DNA of 64,000 nt from Rhodocytophaga aerolata (GTDB lineage: Bacteria; Bacteroidota; Bacteroidia; Cytophagales; 172606-1), in assembly GCF_030503435.1 (NCBI RefSeq), contig NZ_JAUKPO010000003.1:1-64000 (forward strand). The letters are read 5' to 3'. Of this stretch, positions 1 through 61,997 are shown piece after piece. Each line of letters starts with the position of its first letter. Position 1 is the stretch's first letter. The notes under the pieces are model-generated. The model had not been told where the DNA came from. It did not search any database and worked only from the letters and a program-made list of their open reading frames with translations. Position numbers and translations under genes: made by a program.

Positions 1-59
1 TTCCTACCAAACTGATTCACACCGTGGTTGGCATGGGCTATATTATGAAAGAAGAGTAA
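1..59 (+). CDS. OmpR/PhoB-family response regulator, C-terminal tail (partial)
   Basis: The window opens inside a gene. The frame starting at base 3 ends with residues KLIHTVVGMGYIMKEE and a TAA at 57-59. This matches the last beta-hairpin of the winged-helix DNA-binding domain of OmpR/PhoB regulators, where the family reads roughly xLIxTVRGxGYxL. The sensor kinase starts 89 bp downstream on the same strand, so the two probably form a two-component pair. Only 18 codons are visible, so the regulator's target cannot be judged. Confidence 0.75.
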   Translation, partial: PTKLIHTVVGMGYIMKEE

Positions 60-148: not shown

Positions 149-1516
149 ATGAAAATAAGGAATAAGCTTACTCTTCTGTTCACCTTACTGGTAGCCACTA
201 TTCTGCTGATCTTTTCCTTATCTATCCACTATTTTTACACCCTTTACCGGCGCATCGAGTTTTATAACAGGCTAGAAGAAAAAGCCTATACTACCGTACG
301 TTTACTAAAAGAAAATGGCATCAATGCCGGGGTTTTACACACGATTGACCAGAATGAAATAACTTCCCTGTATGAGGAAGAGGTTACCATCTATAATGAA
401 AAAAACCAGGCTATCTACGACAGTGGCAATACACCCTTCCCGGTGACTGCGGAATTTTTGCAACAGGTAAGAGATGGGAAAACCATACAACTGCATAGCG
501 GCCAGAAAGAAGTGCTGGCAGTCAGATACCTCCACGATAAAGATAATCTGGTTATTGTTATTTCGGCAGTGGATAAGTATGGATTCGACAAAGTAGATAT
601 CCTGACGAACTTACTAACCATAGGTGGTCTGGCTAGTGTGGTATTGGTGGCAGTAGCTGGTTGGTTTTTTTCCGGCAATGTGATGAAACCAGTAACTACT
701 ATTGTGCGGCAGGTAAAAGAAATTACTGCCTCTAATCTATCGGCTAGGCTGGAAACCAGCAATAATCAAGATGAATTGAACCAGCTGGCCCGCACCTTTA
801 ATGAGATGTTGGCCAGATTAGAGGAGTCATTTGCTGCGCAAAAAATATTTGTTTCTCATGCCTCACACGAACTACGTACCCCTCTGGCTATTCTAACCAG
901 CCAACTGGAGGTAGAACTTATGCAGCAAAATCTTCCGGATCTATACCGGGCAAAGTTTGAATCCATCCTGGGTGAAATCCACATGATGAATACCCTTTCT
1001 AATGGCCTACTGGAGCTTGCCAGAGCTAGTGCAGATGCTAATTCTATTAGCTTTTCCAGAGTACGTATCGATGAAATTCTCTGGCAGGCACGTAAAGAGT
1101 TGCTCAAAAAAAACCCCGACTGCCAGATTGTTATTGATTTTGAAGAGCAGCCTAATGAAGAAGATGATTTAATTGTATATGGCAACGAAGCCCTGCTGAA
1201 AAGGGCCTTGATGAATTTAATGGAAAACGGTTGCAAGTATTCTGCTAGTAAACCTGTACATATCTGGCTATTATTTAAACCTGAAAATATAATTATCCGC
1301 TTTAAAGACCAGGGAGAAGGCATATCTTCGGAAGACCTTCCTCATATTTTTGAACCTTTTTACCGGTCCCACCGCACCCGGCACATAGCTGGTCACGGTA
1401 TAGGATTGCCCCTTGCCCTTAAAGTAATCCAAATGCACAAAGGCAGCCTACAGATAGAATCGGATGAACACCAGGGTACAATTGCTACGGTTACCTTACC
1501 AGTAGTAGCTGCTTAA
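149..1516 (+). CDS. Two-component sensor histidine kinase (CusS/ArlS-like, HAMP-HisKA-HATPase)
   Basis: Inner-membrane sensor kinase of 455 aa. A first membrane segment lies near residues 7-29, a periplasmic sensor of about 120 residues follows, and a second membrane segment lies near 152-175. A HAMP linker (about 176-228) leads to the HisKA domain with the phospho-acceptor in SHELRTPLA (His240). The HATPase_c domain shows the N-box around NLMENGCKYS and the G-boxes DQGEGIS and GHGIGL. Length and order are those of the CusS/ArlS class. It follows the response-regulator tail at 1-59 and should phosphorylate that protein. No metal-binding motif is obvious in the periplasmic part, so the signal is unknown. 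ATG 149 is the only start that keeps the N-terminal membrane segment. Confidence 0.9.
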   Translation: MKIRNKLTLLFTLLVATILLIFSLSIHYFYTLYRRIEFYNRLEEKAYTTVRLLKENGINAGVLHTIDQNEITSLYEEEVTIYNEKNQAIYDSGNTPFPVTAEFLQQVRDGKTIQLHSGQKEVLAVRYLHDKDNLVIVISAVDKYGFDKVDILTNLLTIGGLASVVLVAVAGWFFSGNVMKPVTTIVRQVKEITASNLSARLETSNNQDELNQLARTFNEMLARLEESFAAQKIFVSHASHELRTPLAILTSQLEVELMQQNLPDLYRAKFESILGEIHMMNTLSNGLLELARASADANSISFSRVRIDEILWQARKELLKKNPDCQIVIDFEEQPNEEDDLIVYGNEALLKRALMNLMENGCKYSASKPVHIWLLFKPENIIIRFKDQGEGISSEDLPHIFEPFYRSHRTRHIAGHGIGLPLALKVIQMHKGSLQIESDEHQGTIATVTLPVVAA

Positions 1517-9846: not shown

Positions 9847-10395
9847 ATGGACAACACAACAAGCAATTATTCTACAGGGTCAACTGGCCAGAGACGAATG
9901 CTCACAGGTATGTTTAGAGACCGCGATAGCGCAGAACAGGCTTATACTTCACTAAGAAGCCGTGGCTATTCAGATGAAGATATTAACCTGTTAATGTCTG
10001 ATGATACCCGTAAAAAACATTTCAAGCATGATGATTCTGCTATAGGTAATAAAGCCATGGAAGGCGCAGGCGTAGGTTCTGCTATTGGTGGTACACTTGG
10101 TGCTATCGTAGGAGCAATTGCTGCTGCAGGTACTTCTATTGCCTTACCTGGTCTTGGCCTGGTAGTAGCCGGCCCAATAGCTGCCGGATTAGCAGGTGCT
10201 GGTGCAGGCGGATTAACCGGCGGTGTACTAGGCGCACTGGTTGGTGCAGGTATTCCAGAAGACCGTGCCAAAGAATATGAGTCTGGTATAAAGGAAGGAG
10301 GCATTGTAATGGGCGTAAGTCCACGTTCAGATGATGATGCTACTTACCTGGAGAATGAGTGGAAAACTTACCGGGGCGAAAAAATTTATAGATAA
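9847..10395 (+). CDS. Stress-protein-like glycine-zipper protein (YflT-type N-terminus)
   Basis: A 182-aa protein. The N-terminal part, MLTGMFRDRDSAEQAYTSLR followed by GYSDEDINLLMSD, resembles the YflT/general stress protein 17M module, a small alpha/beta domain that senses or packs against membranes. The middle (about residues 60-135) is an almost uninterrupted Gly/Ala glycine-zipper stretch that probably inserts into or lies on a membrane. The C-terminus returns to a short soluble domain. The frame opens at 9808, but ATG 9847 fits the family start better. A strong hairpin follows. It resembles in theme the DUF892-YtxH protein at 25028; both suggest general stress or desiccation response. 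Confidence 0.75.
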   Translation: MDNTTSNYSTGSTGQRRMLTGMFRDRDSAEQAYTSLRSRGYSDEDINLLMSDDTRKKHFKHDDSAIGNKAMEGAGVGSAIGGTLGAIVGAIAAAGTSIALPGLGLVVAGPIAAGLAGAGAGGLTGGVLGALVGAGIPEDRAKEYESGIKEGGIVMGVSPRSDDDATYLENEWKTYRGEKIYR

Positions 10396-10435
10396 GCTCT
10401 CAGAAAACTGGCGGTAAGCCCGTTTTGTATAAATG

Positions 10436-10477
10436 AAAAAAGCAGTGGCTGTAGCAATATGGTCACTGCTTTTTTAT
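10436..10477 (+). terminator. Intrinsic terminator of the glycine-zipper gene
   Basis: Stem AAAAAGCAGTG / CACTGCTTTTTT with a 16-nt loop, about 40 bp after the stop codon at 10395. The T-run on the plus strand marks it as the terminator of that gene. Confidence 0.8.
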
Positions 10478-10562
10478 TGGCTCTGTTAATAATTTAACCT
10501 TATAAGCTATTTACAGCACTAATAAAATGCCAGTTTTGGCTAGGCAGGCAGTGAGGTAAAAC

Positions 10563-10609
10563 AAAAGCCTGTTTGAAAATTTATACAATTTTCTAACAGG
10601 CTTTTGCTA
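10563..10609 (-). terminator. Intrinsic terminator of the prolyl oligopeptidase gene
   Basis: Long stem made of AAAAGCCTGTT and AACAGGCTTTT plus an inner AAAAT/ATTTT part, lying 12 bp past the stop of the minus-strand peptidase gene. On the minus strand it is followed by a T-rich stretch. With the hairpin at 10436 it separates two convergent genes. Confidence 0.8.
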
Positions 10610-10620
10610 AAAAGACACTA

Positions 10621-12753
10621 TTACTGATTTTTTTGCAGATTCGGGGTAACGCCCATTGTATACCACACAAAAGACCATATATCAGCCGCTTCTTCTATTT
10701 GCTTGGAGGTAGGTTTGCCCGCCCCGTGTCCGGCTTTGCTTTCTATCCGGATAAGCACTGGGTTGTTGCCTTTATGTTTTTCCTGCAAAGTAGCCGCAAA
10801 CTTGAACGAATGGGCAGGTACTACCCGGTCGTCGTGGTCAGCGGTGGTAACCAAAGTAGCTGGGTAGTTTATTCCTTCCTTCAGGTTATGTAAGGGAGAG
10901 TATTTAATTAGATAATTGAATTGCTCTTGCTTATCGCTGGAGCCATATTCTACTGCCCATCCCCAACCAATAGTAAATTTGTGGTAACGCAGCATATCCA
11001 TTACTCCTACTGCCGGCAGAGCTACTTTAAACAGCTCCGGACGTTGCGTCATTACGGCGCCTACCAGTAAACCTCCATTAGAGCCACCGGCGATAGCTAA
11101 TTTTTGTGACGAGGTATATTTTTCTTTAATCAGGTATTCAGCAGCACCAATAAAGTCGTCGAAAACATTTTGCTTTTTCTCCAGCATGCCTCCTTTGTGC
11201 CAGTTCTCTCCGTATTCACCGCCACCTCTCAAATTAGGCATGGCATAGATTCCGCCATTTTCCAGAAATACCATCATTTTGGCACTGAAAGAAGGAGTTA
11301 AGCTAATATTAAACCCACCATAGGCATACAAATACGTAGGATTATTTCCATCCATTACCAAGCCTTTTTTGTGTACAATAAACATAGGTACTTTGGTACC
11401 ATCTTTACTTGTATAAAAAATCTGTTTGGTTACATAGTCGTCAATACTGAATTTTACCTCTGACTTCCGGAATATTTCAGACTTGCCTGTGGCGATTGTA
11501 TACCGGTATATGGTTGTAGGATAGGTAAAAGAAGTAAAGGTATAAAACAATTCTTTATCTGTTTTTTCTCCAGAAAAACCGCCTGCTGAGCCAATAGCCG
11601 GTAGTTTTATTTCATTTTCGGTTTTTCCATCTATGCTCAACTGGTAAACTTTGCTACTGGCATCTTTCAGGTAGGAGGCAAATAATTTTCCGCCAGCCGA
11701 GTTAACTCCTTCCAATAACTCTGGTTTCTCCGGGATAATGGTTTTCCAGCTGCTGCTATGCGTTTGCCGAGGGTCTATGGAAACCAGGCGGTAGTTAGGA
11801 GCTCCATAATCGGTATGTACTAACAGTTTGTTGCCCACATTATCGATCACCGAATAATTATTTTCAAATCCTTTACAGATCAGCTGAAAACCTTGCGAGT
11901 TGGTATCCATGTCTTTGGCATATAATTCTGTGCCGTGGGTACCTTCAGATGCATAGACGATTACATAGCGTTCATCGTCTGTAACCTGGGCAAAGAAATA
12001 GCGGAGCGGATGTTCTTTATCTTCAAATACTAATTCGTCTTTTTCTTGAGAAGTGCCAAGAGTATGGTAATATACTTTCTGATACTGGTTCTGTGTGGAA
12101 AACTCTTTTCCTTTAGCAGGTGCATCGTAGCGGCTGTAGTAAAATCCATTACCCCGCCAGGAAGCATTCGAAAACTTCACCCATTTCACCTGATCGCTTA
12201 ATAGTTTTTTTGTAGCTACTTCCATTACATAGATCTGTTGCCAATCAGAACCACTTTCAGAAACTGTGTATGCGGCGTACTTATGATTTTTGGAGAACGT
12301 AATACCAGATAAAGCTACGGTGCCATCTGCTGACAAGGTATTGGGGTCTAAGAAAACTTCAGGTTCAGCATTTAAGCCTTTCTGATAGTACAGCACACTC
12401 TGGTTTTGCAAGCCATCATTCTTATAAAAGAAATAATACTCACCTTCTTTGAAAGGGGCAGAGTATTTAGGATAATTCCATATCTGCTCCAGCCGTTTTT
12501 TTACGGCATCCCGGAAAGGAATATTGGCTAAATATTTTTGAGTGACCTGATTCTGGGCGTTTACCCACTGGCCAACATTGGCCGCCGTATCGTGTTCCAG
12601 CCAGCGGTAAGGGTCTGAAATTTTTACGCCGAAGTAGTCATCTGTCTGATCTACTTTTTCTGTTGCCGGATACTGAATAGGTGAAGTTTGTGCGTGGGTG
12701 AGATGTGTAAGTAACAAAACAGGTAAAATAATGGATAGCTTTTTAAAATACAT
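10621..12753 (-). CDS. Prolyl oligopeptidase, S9A family, secreted
   Basis: A 710-aa serine peptidase that cuts short peptides after proline, probably in the periplasm. A signal peptide (MYFKKLSIILPVLLLTHLTHA) is followed by the seven-bladed propeller and the C-terminal alpha/beta hydrolase. The nucleophile is in GGSNGGLL (Ser558), the acid in ADHDDRV and the histidine in AGHGAGKP (about residue 676). The family start motif YPATEKVDQ is present right after the signal peptide. A TTG four codons upstream is open, but the ATG at 12753 starts the signal peptide directly. Single gene with its own terminator. Confidence 0.93.
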   Translation of the reverse strand: MYFKKLSIILPVLLLTHLTHAQTSPIQYPATEKVDQTDDYFGVKISDPYRWLEHDTAANVGQWVNAQNQVTQKYLANIPFRDAVKKRLEQIWNYPKYSAPFKEGEYYFFYKNDGLQNQSVLYYQKGLNAEPEVFLDPNTLSADGTVALSGITFSKNHKYAAYTVSESGSDWQQIYVMEVATKKLLSDQVKWVKFSNASWRGNGFYYSRYDAPAKGKEFSTQNQYQKVYYHTLGTSQEKDELVFEDKEHPLRYFFAQVTDDERYVIVYASEGTHGTELYAKDMDTNSQGFQLICKGFENNYSVIDNVGNKLLVHTDYGAPNYRLVSIDPRQTHSSSWKTIIPEKPELLEGVNSAGGKLFASYLKDASSKVYQLSIDGKTENEIKLPAIGSAGGFSGEKTDKELFYTFTSFTYPTTIYRYTIATGKSEIFRKSEVKFSIDDYVTKQIFYTSKDGTKVPMFIVHKKGLVMDGNNPTYLYAYGGFNISLTPSFSAKMMVFLENGGIYAMPNLRGGGEYGENWHKGGMLEKKQNVFDDFIGAAEYLIKEKYTSSQKLAIAGGSNGGLLVGAVMTQRPELFKVALPAVGVMDMLRYHKFTIGWGWAVEYGSSDKQEQFNYLIKYSPLHNLKEGINYPATLVTTADHDDRVVPAHSFKFAATLQEKHKGNNPVLIRIESKAGHGAGKPTSKQIEEAADIWSFVWYTMGVTPNLQKNQ

Positions 12754-12865: not shown

Positions 12866-15800
12866 TCAGCCAATGGCCAGTTCTTTCTTTTCTGTAGGAA
12901 TACCCAGGGATTTTCTGCTTCTGGACAAGTAGGAATACATAGCCGGCACAATGTATAAAGTAAGAAATCCGGAAATGATCATTCCTCCTACTACCGCAAT
13001 CCCCAGCGACTGGCGGCTACCTGCTGCAGTACCTAAAGATAGGGCAATAGGCAAAATACCTAAAATGGTTGCCATACTGGTCATTAGAATTGGGCGGAAG
13101 CGGGTAGTTGCTGCTTCCAGTACAGCCTCCAGCCGGCTGGCACCTTCCAGCTTGCGTTGATTGGCAAACTCTACTATCAGGATACCATTCTTGGTAACCA
13201 GGCCAATGAGCATAATAATGCCTATCTGGCTGAAAATATTCAGTGTTTGCCCGGTAAAATACAGCGTTATTAATGCGCCCGCCATAGAGGTAGGCACGGT
13301 AAGTAAGATAATGAAGGGATCAATAAAACTTTCAAACTGGGCCGCTAAGATAAGATATATCAATACCAAGGCCAGTATTAAAGCAAATATCAGGCTGGAG
13401 GAGCTATCAGCAAATTCTTTGGATTGTCCGGCAAGGTCTGTTTTTACAGATGGAGGTAATACTTTACGGGCTACTTCATCCATTGCCTGGATGCCTTCTC
13501 CCAGGGTTTTTCCCGGAGCCAATCCTGCAGAGACGGTAGCAGCTACATAGCGGTTATAGCGGTAAATAGCCGCTGCACTTACGGTTTCATCATAGGAAAT
13601 CAAATTATCCAGAGAAACCATGCTGCCATTTCGGCTGCGTACATACAAATTTTTTATATCTATGGGTTCATTCCGGTTATTGCGCGCCAGCTGCCCGATT
13701 ACCTGGTATTGTTTACCATTCATTACAAAATATCCATACCGCTGGCCGCTGTAGGATAATTGAAGTGTACGGGCAATTTCTTCCACAAATACATTCAGTT
13801 CAGACGCTTTTTCCCGGTTTACTTTTAATACTAGTTCAGGCTTGTTTACTTTAAAATCGGAATCTACAAAGCGGAGTGTGGGATGCTGCTGTGCTTCTTC
13901 CAAAAACTTTGGCAGTATTTCTATCAAGCTGTTTACATCACCTGTTTGTAGCACGTATTGTACCGGCTGGCCACCAAACCTGGAACCGATGGTGGGTGGC
14001 TGTGATGGAAAAGACCGCACCCCGGTAAACTCTTCTAATCCTTTAGAAATTTGTTGAAAAATCTGCTCCTGGGTTCGTTGCCGTTTGTCAGGATCTACCA
14101 GAAAGATGTTTTCTAAGCCGGCGTTTACCGGGCTGAAGGTACTACTTCCCGGAGTAACAGCTGTCAGTGAAATAGTGGTGAACAGTTCAGGAACCGAATC
14201 TACAATATAGCTGTCTATAGCCTGCATATACTGGTCCATGTATTCAAACGAAACGCCTTCAGGGGCTTTTACATTTACCCGGATTATAGACCGGTCTTCC
14301 AGAGGAGAGAGTTCAGAGGGTATAGATTTACCCACAAACCAGATAATGCCAAACATGCCCAGTAAGATCAGAAAGGCAGACCAACGGGCTTTCATAAACA
14401 GCTGGAGAGATTTCAGATAACCATCTGTTATGGCTACAAAAAACTTCTCCGTGCTTGCATAAAATTTACTTGGCTTGTCCTGATGCTTCAACATGTACGC
14501 ACACATCATCGGAGAAAGTGTAAGGGCTACCAGTGCAGAAATCAATACGGAACCTGCCAGTACTACTCCAAACTCCAGAAACAGCCTTCCGGTTAACCCC
14601 CGCAAAAAGATAATGGGAATGAAGATAGCTGCCAGCGTAATGGTAGTAGAGATTACGGCAAAGTAGATTTCTTTAGAGCCAACAAGAGCGGCCTGAATCG
14701 GATTCATTCCTTTTTCTACCTTGGCATAAATATTTTCCAGCACCACAATGGCATCATCGCATACCAGTCCAATGGCTAATACAATGGCTACCAGCGTAAG
14801 TACATTAATAGAGAACCCGGCCAGGTACATGATAAAGAAGGTAGAGACGATAGAGATTGGAATGGCAATTACCGGGATCAGGGTAGAACGCCAGTCGCGC
14901 AAAAACATAAATATAACTATCGCCACCAGCATAAATGCTATGATCAGCGTTTCCTCTACCTCTGCAATTGACCGCCTTACCGGTTTGGTGTAATCATTGG
15001 CAATAGCCACTTTGAATTCTGGTGGAATTTCATCTTTTATAGCTTCTAAACGGCGGTAAACTTCGTCAGCAATAGCAATTTCATTCGCATTCGGTTGCGG
15101 TTGTATGCTTAGGTTTAATCCCGGCACGGTTTCCCTTCTAACAGAGGTACGTTCATTTTCAATGCCTAATTCTGCATACCCTATATCGGAGAACCGGATG
15201 ATACGGCCATTCTCAGATTTAATAATCATGCGGTTGAATTCATCAGGTTTGGTTAGGCGGCTGTCGGTACGCAGACCTAATTCGGTGGTATTGCCTTCAA
15301 TGCGGCCGGTAGGCAAATCTATGTTTTCACGGTTCAACGCAGCAAATACATCTGAGGGAACAATTTTGTAGGCAGAGAGTTTTAAGGGGTCCATCCATAG
15401 ACGCATGGAGTAGCGGCGGGCACCACGTACCTGGGCAGAGCTTACGCCAGGAATGGTTTGCAGCCGTTCTTTGAGTACGTTCTCTGCAAAATCTGTAATC
15501 TCCATCAGGTTTTTGGTGTCGCTCTGAATGGTGAGGAATATGACAGACTGGGAGTTGGCATCGGCTTTATCTATAACCGGCGGGTCGGCATCTTTAGGAA
15601 GGTTTCCGGAGGCAGCAGAAACTTTGCTTCGCACATCGTTGGCAGCTGCTTCCAAATCTACATTGATATCAAACTCTACTGTTATCTGGCTTACCTGCTC
15701 ACGCGAGGTAGAAGAAATAATGCGTACACCAGAAATCCCATTGATGGCTTGCTCCAGCGGTTCGGTAATTTGCGACTCTATTACATCCGGATTAGCGCCT

Positions 15801-15955
15801 GCATACGTAGTACTAACGGTGATAATCGGTGGATCTACAGCCGGATATTCTCTGGTACCTAAAAAACTAAATCCTACCACGCCGAATATAACCAGCAGGA
15901 TGGATAATACAATGGCTAGTACTGGTCTCCGGATGCTTAGTTCTGATATGCTCAT
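12866..15955 (-). CDS. RND efflux pump inner-membrane permease (AcrB/MexB-like HAE1 family)
   Basis: A 1029-aa proton-driven exporter starting MSISELSIRRPVLAIVL. It has the RND layout: TM1, a large periplasmic loop, TM2-6, TM7, a second large loop and TM8-12. The proton-relay Asp pair is visible in GLVCDDAIVVLENIYA (TM4), and the family motif GxxxDxAxxVxEN is intact. The open frame extends 18 codons upstream but overlaps the intergenic spacer; ATG 15955 matches the family N-terminus. It lies 40 bp after the adaptor gene and is surely co-transcribed with it. No TolC-type outer-membrane factor lies next to the pair, so an outside channel must be used. Substrates are unknown. Confidence 0.93.
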   Translation of the reverse strand: MSISELSIRRPVLAIVLSILLVIFGVVGFSFLGTREYPAVDPPIITVSTTYAGANPDVIESQITEPLEQAINGISGVRIISSTSREQVSQITVEFDINVDLEAAANDVRSKVSAASGNLPKDADPPVIDKADANSQSVIFLTIQSDTKNLMEITDFAENVLKERLQTIPGVSSAQVRGARRYSMRLWMDPLKLSAYKIVPSDVFAALNRENIDLPTGRIEGNTTELGLRTDSRLTKPDEFNRMIIKSENGRIIRFSDIGYAELGIENERTSVRRETVPGLNLSIQPQPNANEIAIADEVYRRLEAIKDEIPPEFKVAIANDYTKPVRRSIAEVEETLIIAFMLVAIVIFMFLRDWRSTLIPVIAIPISIVSTFFIMYLAGFSINVLTLVAIVLAIGLVCDDAIVVLENIYAKVEKGMNPIQAALVGSKEIYFAVISTTITLAAIFIPIIFLRGLTGRLFLEFGVVLAGSVLISALVALTLSPMMCAYMLKHQDKPSKFYASTEKFFVAITDGYLKSLQLFMKARWSAFLILLGMFGIIWFVGKSIPSELSPLEDRSIIRVNVKAPEGVSFEYMDQYMQAIDSYIVDSVPELFTTISLTAVTPGSSTFSPVNAGLENIFLVDPDKRQRTQEQIFQQISKGLEEFTGVRSFPSQPPTIGSRFGGQPVQYVLQTGDVNSLIEILPKFLEEAQQHPTLRFVDSDFKVNKPELVLKVNREKASELNVFVEEIARTLQLSYSGQRYGYFVMNGKQYQVIGQLARNNRNEPIDIKNLYVRSRNGSMVSLDNLISYDETVSAAAIYRYNRYVAATVSAGLAPGKTLGEGIQAMDEVARKVLPPSVKTDLAGQSKEFADSSSSLIFALILALVLIYLILAAQFESFIDPFIILLTVPTSMAGALITLYFTGQTLNIFSQIGIIMLIGLVTKNGILIVEFANQRKLEGASRLEAVLEAATTRFRPILMTSMATILGILPIALSLGTAAGSRQSLGIAVVGGMIISGFLTLYIVPAMYSYLSRSRKSLGIPTEKKELAIG

Positions 15956-15995
15956 GGTACTAAAGGCTCTGAGGTAAAATAGTGAATTACAGCAA

Positions 15996-17057
15996 TTAAT
16001 TCTTGGCAAAAATAGCCCGTACTGGTATACCAGGTTTGGCGCGTAATATATTGGTTGTCATAACCGTGTCGCCCAGTTGCAAGCCGCTTGTAATCTGTAC
16101 GTGCGAACTGGTACGCAGGCCAATTGTAACTTGTGCATTTTGTGCTTTTCCGTTTCTTACCACTAATACATTGTTGCCTTGCAGGCCTGGAATTAATGCC
16201 TGTGCCGGTACCATCTTGGTATCAGTTATTTCATTCAGTGGAAGAGAAATAGTAGCAGAAGAGCCAGGAATGAGTTTTTTATCAGTATTACTGGCAATAG
16301 CCCGTACAAACAAACTTCTGGTATTAAGATCAATAAAGGGTTCTATCACCTTCACCAGGCCAGTATAAGTTGTATCACTGTTTTCCACACGGAACTGAAT
16401 GGGTTGGTCTAACCGCAGGCTGTTTGCATATTTTTCCGGAACGGCAAATTCTATTTTTACAAGATTGATATCTTCCAAAGTAACCAGAGGCATGTTTTGC
16501 GTAACAAAAGCTCCTTCGCTTACTTTACGTATCCCTGTTTTGCCGCTGAATGGTGCTCTGATTTCGGTTTTATTAATTTCTACTTCTATTAGTTCTATAT
16601 CTGCATCCAGGCTTTCAATAGAGCCGGCCACTCGTTCATACTCTTGCTTGCTTACTCCTTCCAGCTTTAAAAGGGCAGCTGTACGTGCCTCGTCACTGGC
16701 AATCAGTTTCCGTTGAGCGTGTAGTTTTTTCAGTTGAGCCTGCAGGTCGGCGTCGTCCAGTTTAAAAAGTAACTGGCCTTTTGTTACATTCGCGCCTTCC
16801 CGGAAGTTTACTTTAACAAGTCTTTTAGCACTTTCGCTAACAATTTGTACCTGCTCATTGGCTACCAGGCTTCCCAGTACATCCAGATACTCCTGAATAG
16901 TGGTGTCTTTTACTATATATACTTCTGCCGCAATTCCTTTATTACTGGCAACCGGAGCCTTGCCTTGCATGGCTGGTTGCTTTTCAGGAGAAAATACAAA
17001 GTACGATACAATAGCTAGCAGGACAACAACAGAAATAATAGTAACCGTTTTTTTCAT
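15996..17057 (-). CDS. RND efflux periplasmic adaptor (membrane fusion protein)
   Basis: A 353-aa HlyD/AcrA-type adaptor with one N-terminal membrane anchor (residues 4-24) and no lipobox. The biotinyl-lipoyl half motifs flank a short coiled coil (about 105-150): GANVTKGQLLFKLDDADL before it and IRAPFSGKTGIRKVSEGAFV after it. The beta-barrel and membrane-proximal domains follow. The short hairpin is typical of the MexH/BepF-type adaptors common in Bacteroidota. It is the first gene of a two-gene operon with the permease. Confidence 0.93.
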   Translation of the reverse strand: MKKTVTIISVVVLLAIVSYFVFSPEKQPAMQGKAPVASNKGIAAEVYIVKDTTIQEYLDVLGSLVANEQVQIVSESAKRLVKVNFREGANVTKGQLLFKLDDADLQAQLKKLHAQRKLIASDEARTAALLKLEGVSKQEYERVAGSIESLDADIELIEVEINKTEIRAPFSGKTGIRKVSEGAFVTQNMPLVTLEDINLVKIEFAVPEKYANSLRLDQPIQFRVENSDTTYTGLVKVIEPFIDLNTRSLFVRAIASNTDKKLIPGSSATISLPLNEITDTKMVPAQALIPGLQGNNVLVVRNGKAQNAQVTIGLRTSSHVQITSGLQLGDTVMTTNILRAKPGIPVRAIFAKN

Positions 17058-57881: not shown

Positions 57882-57938
57882 CAAAAATCTTTAGAGCTAG
57901 TTAAAAGGACATTAAATTAAAATTAAAAACAGATTAAA
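57882..57938 (-). promoter_or_regulatory. Third 4 x TTTAAT array with 11-bp period, promoter of the small gene
   Basis: On the minus strand TTTAA(T/C) begins at 57938, 57927, 57916 and 57905 (TTAAA on the plus strand at 57901, 57912, 57923, 57934). The period is exactly 11 bp. After the last half-site come 10 bp and then GATTTTTG (57889-57882), which matches nAnnTTTG. The start codon at 57830 is about 50 bp further. The geometry is the same as that of the other two arrays. Confidence 0.75.
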
Positions 57939-58026: not shown

Positions 58027-59412
58027 TTAAATAAAGAGCTGATATTGCAGCACCACGCATCCTCTGCGGGTTGTTTGTATAATATTACCTGCCGGAGCCG
58101 CTTCATAAACCGGACGGTTCTGGTAATCCAGGGTTAATTTGCTGGTATGGCCTTTCAGGAGCCAGTTAATGCCCAGGTTATATACAGCCATTGGGTCGGC
58201 TAAGCGTTTGTAATTTGCATACATCAGGGAGGCATACGGAAGCAAGGTGCCATTGCCTTCGCCAAGTAAATTTTTTGGCAATAAGTACCCTACCTGGCTA
58301 TACAAAACATTACCGGTTCCAAACATAGGAAAAGCATTGCCATAGGTATTGCTAATCCCTGACAAAGGTGAAGTGGTGCCATTGGCCGGGTTCATAATGC
58401 CATTATACCGCAGATAGCCTTGCCCAAAATCGTAAGTAAAGTAACCGGCATAGGCGGAAATTGCAGTACCCTTGTTTTTATTCACGGGCATATCCAGAAA
58501 GGCAGCTACCGACCATAAATTCAGGTTAGTATATACAGTATCTTGCGTTTCGGAGCTATGCCACATGGCTTTTGCCTGGGTTATAAAGCCTCCTTCCAGA
58601 TTCAATACCCGTTTGCTGCCCAGGTAAGTGCCAGTCATGTAAGGCGTTGTATGCGGCTCTTTATCCCATAGTTGGTAGGTAAAAAAGCCCTGATATTGTT
58701 TATGATGGCTTTTCTGGGAGAAAGTAGAGTTGGTAGAAAGAGCCGGAGCTGTTTGTCCATTGGTAGTAATAGGGAATGGATCGCTTACGACTAGGCGGTA
58801 GTCAATTTTTCCTATTTGCCCCCGGGCATACACACTGAGTTTTCTGGAGAACTCATCGGTCTGGTCTACGGTAGCCTGGGCAAAAACCGGCACATCCATC
58901 GTAAGAATCGTACCAATACTTGGCTGACTAAACCTGGAAAGTCCATTGGCGATGGTTAGTCCGCCACCCAGTTTTAAATAGTTTTTTCCTTTAACTACCG
59001 CATACTCTGTTAAGGCATCGTGGAAGAAAACCTGCATTTTGCGGTTGCCTGCATTCTGCGATAAGAAATTAAAGTTATTCTGCCCAAACTGGAAGTAAAT
59101 AAATGCCCTATCGGTAAGTTGACCGTACAACTGAATTCTGGTGCGGCGCAACCCAACATCGAACGTATGAGCAGCAGGTTCTCCCAGAACCGTAGTGCCC
59201 GGATTACTCTGATCAAACCGCAGCCAGGTCTGGTTTAGAAACGTAACCTTAAAATAATGAGAGCCGCTTTCATTTAAATTATACTTTAGTTCAGTTTTGT
59301 CCGGCACTGGTTTGGGCGTTCGTACGGAACTACTATCGGCCTGTACCTGGGCTTTGGTAGGTAGTATCCATATACTTTGTAACAGCCAGATGATGAATAG
59401 AGTATTTTTCAT
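58027..59412 (-). CDS. OprP/OprO-like outer-membrane porin
   Basis: A 461-aa protein with a signal peptide (MKNTLFIIWLLQSIWILPTKA). The mature protein is made of alternating beta strands with Gly/aromatic ends. It shows the OprO/P-type segment VGLRRTRIQLYGQLTDRAFIYFQFGQNNF and the terminal aromatic residue Phe-Ile close to the end, as in other outer-membrane barrels. OprP-type porins favour phosphate or polyphosphate anions. The open frame extends 55 codons upstream through the hairpin at 59556; ATG 59412 is preferred. It lies 182 bp after sulP, behind a terminator, so partial read-through or an own weak promoter is needed. Confidence 0.8.
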   Translation of the reverse strand: MKNTLFIIWLLQSIWILPTKAQVQADSSSVRTPKPVPDKTELKYNLNESGSHYFKVTFLNQTWLRFDQSNPGTTVLGEPAAHTFDVGLRRTRIQLYGQLTDRAFIYFQFGQNNFNFLSQNAGNRKMQVFFHDALTEYAVVKGKNYLKLGGGLTIANGLSRFSQPSIGTILTMDVPVFAQATVDQTDEFSRKLSVYARGQIGKIDYRLVVSDPFPITTNGQTAPALSTNSTFSQKSHHKQYQGFFTYQLWDKEPHTTPYMTGTYLGSKRVLNLEGGFITQAKAMWHSSETQDTVYTNLNLWSVAAFLDMPVNKNKGTAISAYAGYFTYDFGQGYLRYNGIMNPANGTTSPLSGISNTYGNAFPMFGTGNVLYSQVGYLLPKNLLGEGNGTLLPYASLMYANYKRLADPMAVYNLGINWLLKGHTSKLTLDYQNRPVYEAAPAGNIIQTTRRGCVVLQYQLFI

Positions 59413-59553
59413 GGATTTGTGTGTAGTACTACCATTAGCATGACTGGTGGCATAGGCTGCCTGCATTTCAAAAATTGAACACAGCCTTTCTTCATCCCAA
59501 GAAAATTTCCTGAGAATACCCAGACCAGTTAATAGCTTATAAGTAGATGGATA

Positions 59554-61868: not shown

Positions 61869-61925
61869 CAAAATTGAGTGAAGGGAATTAAAAGGGTATT
61901 AAACCAGTATTAAAAACCAATTAAA
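61869..61925 (-). promoter_or_regulatory. Array 1: four TTTAAT half-sites, 11-bp period, promoter of sulP
   Basis: On the plus strand ATTAAA starts at 61887, 61898, 61909 and 61920, so TTTAAT reads four times on the minus strand with an exact 11-bp period. The last half-site is followed by 10 bp and CAATTTTG (61876-61869), a nAnnTTTG -7 element. The predicted transcript starts near 61862, about 36 nt before ATG 61826. An 11-bp direct-repeat period is the hallmark of OmpR/PhoB-family binding sites. Confidence 0.8.
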
Positions 61926-61940
61926 ACCTGCTCTATTCTT

Positions 61941-61997
61941 TTTAATGGCTTTTTAATCTGGGTTTAATCTAAGTTTAATTGTGTGGAAGCATTTTTG
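61941..61997 (+). promoter_or_regulatory. Array 2: four TTTAAT half-sites, 11-bp period, promoter of dabA
   Basis: TTTAAT starts at 61941, 61952, 61963 and 61974, an exact 11-bp period. After the last half-site there are 10 bp and then CATTTTTG (61990-61997), a nAnnTTTG -7 element. The predicted transcript starts near 62004, about 55 nt before ATG 62059. It mirrors array 1 around 61933. Confidence 0.8.

Follow-up and report, generated by a model that had tools for sequence, protein, structure and literature searches.

Mirror-image arrays of 11-bp repeats between sulP and dabA as predicted operators of a CusR-like two-component system in Rhodocytophaga aerolata

Our analysis suggests that the two mirror-image arrays between the divergent genes sulP and dabA would be class II activator sites of a two-component system for inorganic-carbon transport, a reading to which we give a probability of about 0.8. 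The probable regulators of such arrays form a CusR-like subfamily of response regulators (RRs) linked to dabA/sulP. The RR encoded at the start of the window, i.e. the whole 64,000-nucleotide stretch analysed here, with the adjoining kinase as its partner, is most likely the one that acts on the arrays of this locus, as the comparisons below indicate. The features concerned are collected in Table 1.

Table 1. Positions of genes, arrays and promoter elements in the window (contig positions where stated)
Feature	Position	Strand	Remarks
Last 18 codons of linked RR gene, PTKLIHTVVGMGYIMKEE*	1..59	+	cut by contig end
Sensor histidine kinase	149..1516	+	first whole gene of contig; 71% identical to the dabAB-side kinase of the congener
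Small ORF, 83 aa	57579..57830	-	target of third array; no Pfam family
-7 element of third array, GATTTTTG	57882..57889	-	10 bp past third array
Third array, TTTAAT x3 + TTTAAC	57900..57938	-	same layout; missed by the initial annotation
Porin-like outer-membrane protein	58027..59466	-	after sulP; no Pfam match
sulP, SulP-family (Sulfate_transp) anion transporter, 743 aa	59595..61826	-	Pfam PF00916
sulP -7 element, CAATTTTG	61869..61876	-	10 bp past array, 42 bp ahead of sulP ATG
sulP-side array, TTTAAT-N5 x4, 11-bp period	61887..61925	-	predicted response-regulator site; kept in congener
dabA-side array, TTTAAT-N5 x4	61941..61979	+	kept in congener, Runella, Arsenicibacter
dabA -7 element, CATTTTTG	61990..61997	+	10 bp past array, 61 bp ahead of dabA ATG
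dabA, 846 aa	62059..63999	+	continues past window end
dabB	64610-66484 of contig		downstream of dabA

The arrays at sulP and dabA

The initial annotation had placed ATTAAA words at 61887, 61898, 61909 and 61920 and TTTAAT words at 61941, 61952, 61963 and 61974, and we found every one of them there, with exactly the claimed spacing. Read in the direction of the genes, both arrays consist of TTTAAT-N5 repeated four times and are followed by exactly 10 bp and a -7 element, as had been described. It had also been argued that AT-richness is not sufficient to explain them. Our simulations agree, as no four-word arrays occurred in 9 Mb of simulated sequence, even with a model trained on the arrays' own AT-rich spacers, and chance occurrence in AT-rich DNA was rejected on these grounds as the source of the arrays. 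When up to 3 mismatches are allowed, the three-word pattern matches 7 times in the window, versus 0.66 expected.

The arrays, whose absence from close relatives was said to tell against the regulatory reading, are present at sulP and dabA in the single congener genome compared (G001). The mirror arrays at these two genes score highest of all array matches in its 9 Mb, and nAnnTTTG is found at N10 in both. The gap between the back-to-back arrays is 15 bp here and about 255 bp in the congener, hence the tight packing is not conserved. Arrays were also found upstream of dabA in four Runella loci and in Arsenicibacter, and upstream of sulP in Runella, Fibrivirga and the genomes G003, G016, G018, G025 and G035. 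Many dabA genes elsewhere in the phylum have no array.

The SulP protein would be a bicarbonate transporter; it scores below the BicA cut-off (NCBIfam). The sulP-porin gene order is kept in the congener, and the porin-like protein probably belongs to the same transport unit as sulP. We observed a porin-like protein accompanying sulP in three genomes (58027-59466 of the window, L214:3935-5317 and L274:8684-10090).

Phasing of the arrays with the -7 element

We scanned the genomes with a sequence-only array model of 39 bp from which the -7 box was left out. The offset of nAnnTTTG from the array is an independent test because the model excludes the promoter. The exact nAnnTTTG stands at offset 10 in 13 of the 20 sites of the genome itself and in 13 of the 25 sites of the relatives (26/45), and at offset 21, i.e. 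one turn further, in three of the 45 sites (one of them among the relatives). At any other offset it occurs only three times over 66 offsets. For the 25 sites of the relatives, which lie outside the training set, the phasing has P = 4e-30, given a chance of 0.0017 per position for nAnnTTTG.

In Flavobacterium the -7 box occupies -12 to -5 (PMC9723704), and with the box at this place the array would span about -61 to -23, over the position of the -33 element. The earlier proposal of an activator-dependent promoter thus gains support, as the arrays appear to be placed at the -33 position and no good -33 element is seen. A TAnnTTTG-like -7 box at fixed spacing with an operator over the -33 region, as seen here, is the arrangement of a class II activator-dependent sigma-A promoter of the Bacteroidota.

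Array sites across the genome

About 20 separate array sites were found in the 9.07 Mb genome at E < 0.1 with the array-only model, a count that is not independent of the model since it was trained partly on the genome's own sites. The sites precede sulP, dabA, a beta-carbonic anhydrase gene and a small ORF with a Na/H exchanger gene next to it. Further sites belong to three uspA-bestrophin operons, a czc-type efflux operon, a cation-efflux gene, a desaturase gene and others.

The uspA-bestrophin operons on contigs C99, C122 and C156 (loci L166, L158 and L165) carry a TCTAAT-type array with TAGyTTTG at N10, and the one on C99 also carries a carbonic anhydrase gene and its own RR-kinase pair. 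A second mirror-image pair of arrays, of TCTAAG type, was observed at L110:7115-7213 (C118:39114-39212 of the genome). On one side of this pair lies an operon of a small ORF, a Na-H antiporter, an RR and a kinase, and on the other only a broken remnant of a universal-stress-protein gene (about 7816-7959 of L110). A non-coding RNA under the plus-strand array of this pair was considered and rejected, as there is no credible Rfam match and the broken remnant lies there.

Two small proteins under array control (L110:6740-7015 and L108:6723-7007) have 91 and 94 aa and no Pfam match. They look alike by eye, sharing FSK..., LGNL and ...GG..IP motifs, and possibly form a small-protein family of the regulon. 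Genes for a catalase, a cation-efflux protein and a desaturase (L109:5187-7418, 10022-10690 and 15200-16243) surround another RR-kinase pair with three arrays, and we regard this cluster as a stress island belonging to the same subfamily of regulators.

A CusR-like subfamily of response regulators

The initial annotation had linked the repeats to OmpR/PhoB-family regulators and their Pho boxes. The claim holds at the level of the family, given the 11-bp direct repeats and the winged-helix RRs linked to them, and does not hold for the Pho regulon. Tandem direct repeats near 11 bp (10-11) are the OmpR/PhoB type of operator, and the dab-linked RR of Runella has the domains PF00072 and PF00486, i.e. 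a receiver and a winged-helix effector domain. Immediately upstream of the array and dabA, Runella encodes an OmpR-type RR and a kinase, and the pair lies just beyond dabB in the congener. Overall, an RR-kinase pair adjoins dabA or sulP in Runella and Spirosoma telluris (at the loci examined), the congener, G003, G018 and G025.

The genome itself encodes five whole members of this subfamily, at 48-66% identity, with the next RR at 38%. All five have an array nearby, whereas the next nine OmpR-type RRs outside the subfamily have none within 5 kb. In the relatives, 12 of the 33 arrays are within 5 kb of a subfamily RR gene, where 0.2 would be expected (P = 9e-18), and in new genomes 35 of the 62 subfamily RR loci hold an array versus 1/62 in the reversed sequence. 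Arrays occur in all genomes with at least three members and in one of the 27 with fewer, by a test that ignores relatedness and genome size. Arrays also stand directly before RR genes, which suggests autoregulation.

Among the curated NCBIfam models the heavy-metal pair TIGR01387/TIGR01386 comes closest, both being matched below cut-off; TIGR01387 is the best model for all RRs tried, with 229-265 bits against a cut-off of 279.2. Members of the subfamily also adjoin genes for RND/Czc efflux, catalase, SPFH proteins and desaturase, and hence the subfamily cannot be called a carbon system in its entirety.

The regulator at the start of the window

The RR tail encoded at the window start aligns with the tail of the congener's RR, FPVKLIHTVVGMGYILKEE*. 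The cognate kinase gene adjoins the regulator gene, as in a two-component system, and the other kinases of the genome have only 35-48% identity to the dab-linked kinase versus 71% for the one at 149-1516. Contig C110 begins with the same 55 bp as the window, the 3' end of an RR gene, and a TTTAAT array begins at its base 280. The idea that C110 starts with a kinase tail was rejected; it carries the same 55-bp RR tail. The likeliest reading is that two near-identical RR copies broke the assembly at the 55-base overlap and that the RR was lost there.

A match between helix residue and operator word

We found that the helix residue of the RR at the position of PhoB R201 predicts the operator word across about sixty genomes, Phe going with TTTAA and Tyr with TCTAA. 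For 53 subfamily RRs we searched up to 4.5 kb away for the best-scoring array, with a score that does not distinguish T from C at word position 2 and takes no account of position 6. Of the regulators with an array, all 20 with Tyr show C at word position 2 in at least one word, and the 14 with Phe and the one with Leu show it in none. The residue (Phe/Leu or Tyr) and the base (T or C) thus agree in 35/35 pairs, with P = 3e-10 when Leu is counted with Phe. In an independent set of 24 genomes, 23 of them new for RRs, the match holds for 21/21 Tyr and 12/13 Phe regulators (33/34, P = 2e-8), and the sole exception has one C in a degenerate fourth word at a site shared with a second RR. On a tree made without the helix the residue changes about 5 times (bootstrap 4-6), with a matching change of word in every case, e.g. 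in L284 (Phe, TTTAAG) as against its supported relatives L267 and L295 (Tyr, TCTAAG). At position 6 there is a tendency for Asp to go with T and Glu with G (P = 5e-5, then 0.004 in the independent set).

In our own alignment to PhoB numbering, the Phe/Tyr column falls on R201, a base-contact residue of PhoB, and the Asp/Glu column on D196, which makes no contact in PhoB and for which a contact is suggested in Mycobacterium tuberculosis PhoP (PMC3264566). The Asp/Phe type is found in all the RRs linked to dab/sulP in Runella, Spirosoma, the congener and G003. The same type is expected here because the words are TTTAAT, and Phe is accordingly the expected helix residue of the RR at the window start, as read from its orthologs. 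On balance we believe that cognate regulators and their regulons can be assigned from sequence alone in this expanded CusR-like subfamily of the Cytophagales (up to 8 members per genome), with its four-word 11-bp operators, the Phe/Tyr code, a weaker Asp/Glu bias at position 6, one branch for the uptake of inorganic carbon by heterotrophs (SulP, DabAB) and others for carbonic anhydrase, bestrophin or metal efflux.

Proposed mechanism and alternative explanations

We propose that a phosphorylated RR of the OmpR/PhoB fold and CusR-like type would bind the four words head to tail as tandem dimers, reading the word through its recognition helix, with Phe for TTTAA and Tyr for TCTAA. By their spacing the four half-sites lie on one face of the DNA, and they end exactly 10 bp before the -7 boxes of sulP(-porin) and dabAB. 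The bound RR would stand in for the missing -33 contact (class II activation) and would switch on DabAB, the CO2/bicarbonate system, jointly with the SulP transporter. Judged from gene content only, the system probably responds to a shortage of inorganic carbon, or to a pH or ion cue linked with it. The carbon signal is preferred because the Asp/Phe systems adjoin SulP/Dab genes and other members adjoin carbonic anhydrase and bestrophin genes.

The arrays could also be Pho boxes of a PhoB ortholog, with the locus answering phosphate starvation. They do resemble the promoters of Escherichia coli PhoB and Bacillus subtilis PhoP, where 11-bp direct repeats end 10 bp upstream of the -10/-7 element. 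We rejected this as hardly credible because a search that was positive in control genomes found no PhoU in this genome, which is rated 100% complete; because the regulon content, proposed in the initial annotation as the way to name the signal, includes no pst or phoX among the annotated genes downstream of the roughly 20 sites; and because the PhoB models failed, the linked RRs and the genome's own paralogs scoring 152-213 bits against the TIGR02154 cut-off of 296.2 and 148-181 bits against the NF053854 cut-off of 270. That the arrays go with all five whole subfamily members and not with the next nine RRs speaks against it as well. Repression, or nucleoid binding to AT-rich, curved DNA, would be another role for the arrays in place of activation, since A/T tracts phased at about one helical turn bend DNA and some OmpR-family RRs act as repressors. 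It is very improbable, however, in view of the strict conservation of word and offset across genera, the covariation of the words with the RR helix, and the lack of a good -33 element, on which a promoter without an activator would depend.

Within the activator reading, a different subfamily RR of the same genome, encoded on C125 or C118, might read the sulP/dabA arrays in place of the window-start RR. The regulator on C125 has a helix of the Glu/Phe type, and its Phe matches TTTAA words. The C118 RR is the best whole-gene match (66%) to the dab-linked RRs of Runella and the congener, and it is linked to carbonic anhydrase and Na/H antiporter genes. But their own arrays have TTTAAG/C words (C125) and TCTAAG/T words (C118), neither of them TTTAAT, and the ortholog of the dab-linked kinase lies in the window, well above the other kinases in identity, which makes this unlikely. 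The C118 RR as the only regulator was first preferred for its carbonic anhydrase neighbour and was dropped because its helix Tyr and TCTAAG words do not match TTTAAT and the kinase ortholog is in the window. A signal of metal or envelope/oxidative stress, with the SulP/Dab genes being part of the response, is less probable than a carbon signal and yet deserves attention. The heavy-metal models are the nearest curated ones, though the scores stay below cut-off, the Asp/Tyr-type paralogs adjoin RND/Czc efflux genes in 21/34 cases, and catalase and cation-efflux genes lie near the system at C118:14.2k. Against it, the Asp/Phe types with TTTAAT words adjoin SulP/Dab genes in 7/24 cases versus 3/91 for the other types, a difference that is partly one of ascertainment, as dabA had served to retrieve the loci of Runella and Spirosoma.

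Significance and comparison with known systems

A pattern seen by eye has become a testable regulon with a candidate regulator, kinase, operator and targets, and it suggests how a heterotrophic member of the Bacteroidota may control its bicarbonate supply through DabAB and SulP. The match between residue and base gives a direct handle on the question, for the OmpR/PhoB family, of how closely related RRs of the same cell are kept from cross-reading. No report of a two-component system controlling a DabA/SulP locus came up in our literature search; the term 'two-component' does not occur in the DAB2 paper, and the paper on Porphyromonas gingivalis RprY offers no motif for comparison. In the literature searched, which covered few subscription journals, there was no account of the subfamily, of its four-word operator, of the match between residue and word or of the DabA/SulP regulon.

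The mechanism class, i.e. tandem 11-bp repeats with class II activation, is already known. The core binding region of B. subtilis PhoP has four TTAACA-like repeats about 11 bp apart. Our arrays are similar to it in having four TTAA-core half-sites at one-turn spacing upstream of an activated promoter, whereas the regulon and the phylum are unrelated. The likeness to E. coli PhoB lies in the direct repeats of 11-nt units read head to tail by a winged helix (PMC4415409), in a site that replaces the upstream promoter element, and in the base contact at R201 (PMC3264566). The differences are another subfamily, another word, four contiguous half-sites as the rule, the -7 box of the Bacteroidota, and transport and stress genes rather than phosphate genes as targets. 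The CusR/CzcR/CopR group (TIGR01387) provides the nearest curated RR and kinase models, and paralogs of our RRs adjoin RND/Czc efflux genes as well. The RRs here nevertheless fall below the 279.2 cut-off, and they have a direct-repeat tetrad and not an inverted repeat such as ATKACANNNNTGTMAT, which is bound by the metal-linked RR AgrR (PMC7380067). As for the targets, the gene products encoded here are the same as in the known DAB/DAC inorganic-carbon systems (DabAB, MpsAB) and among the SulP transporters.
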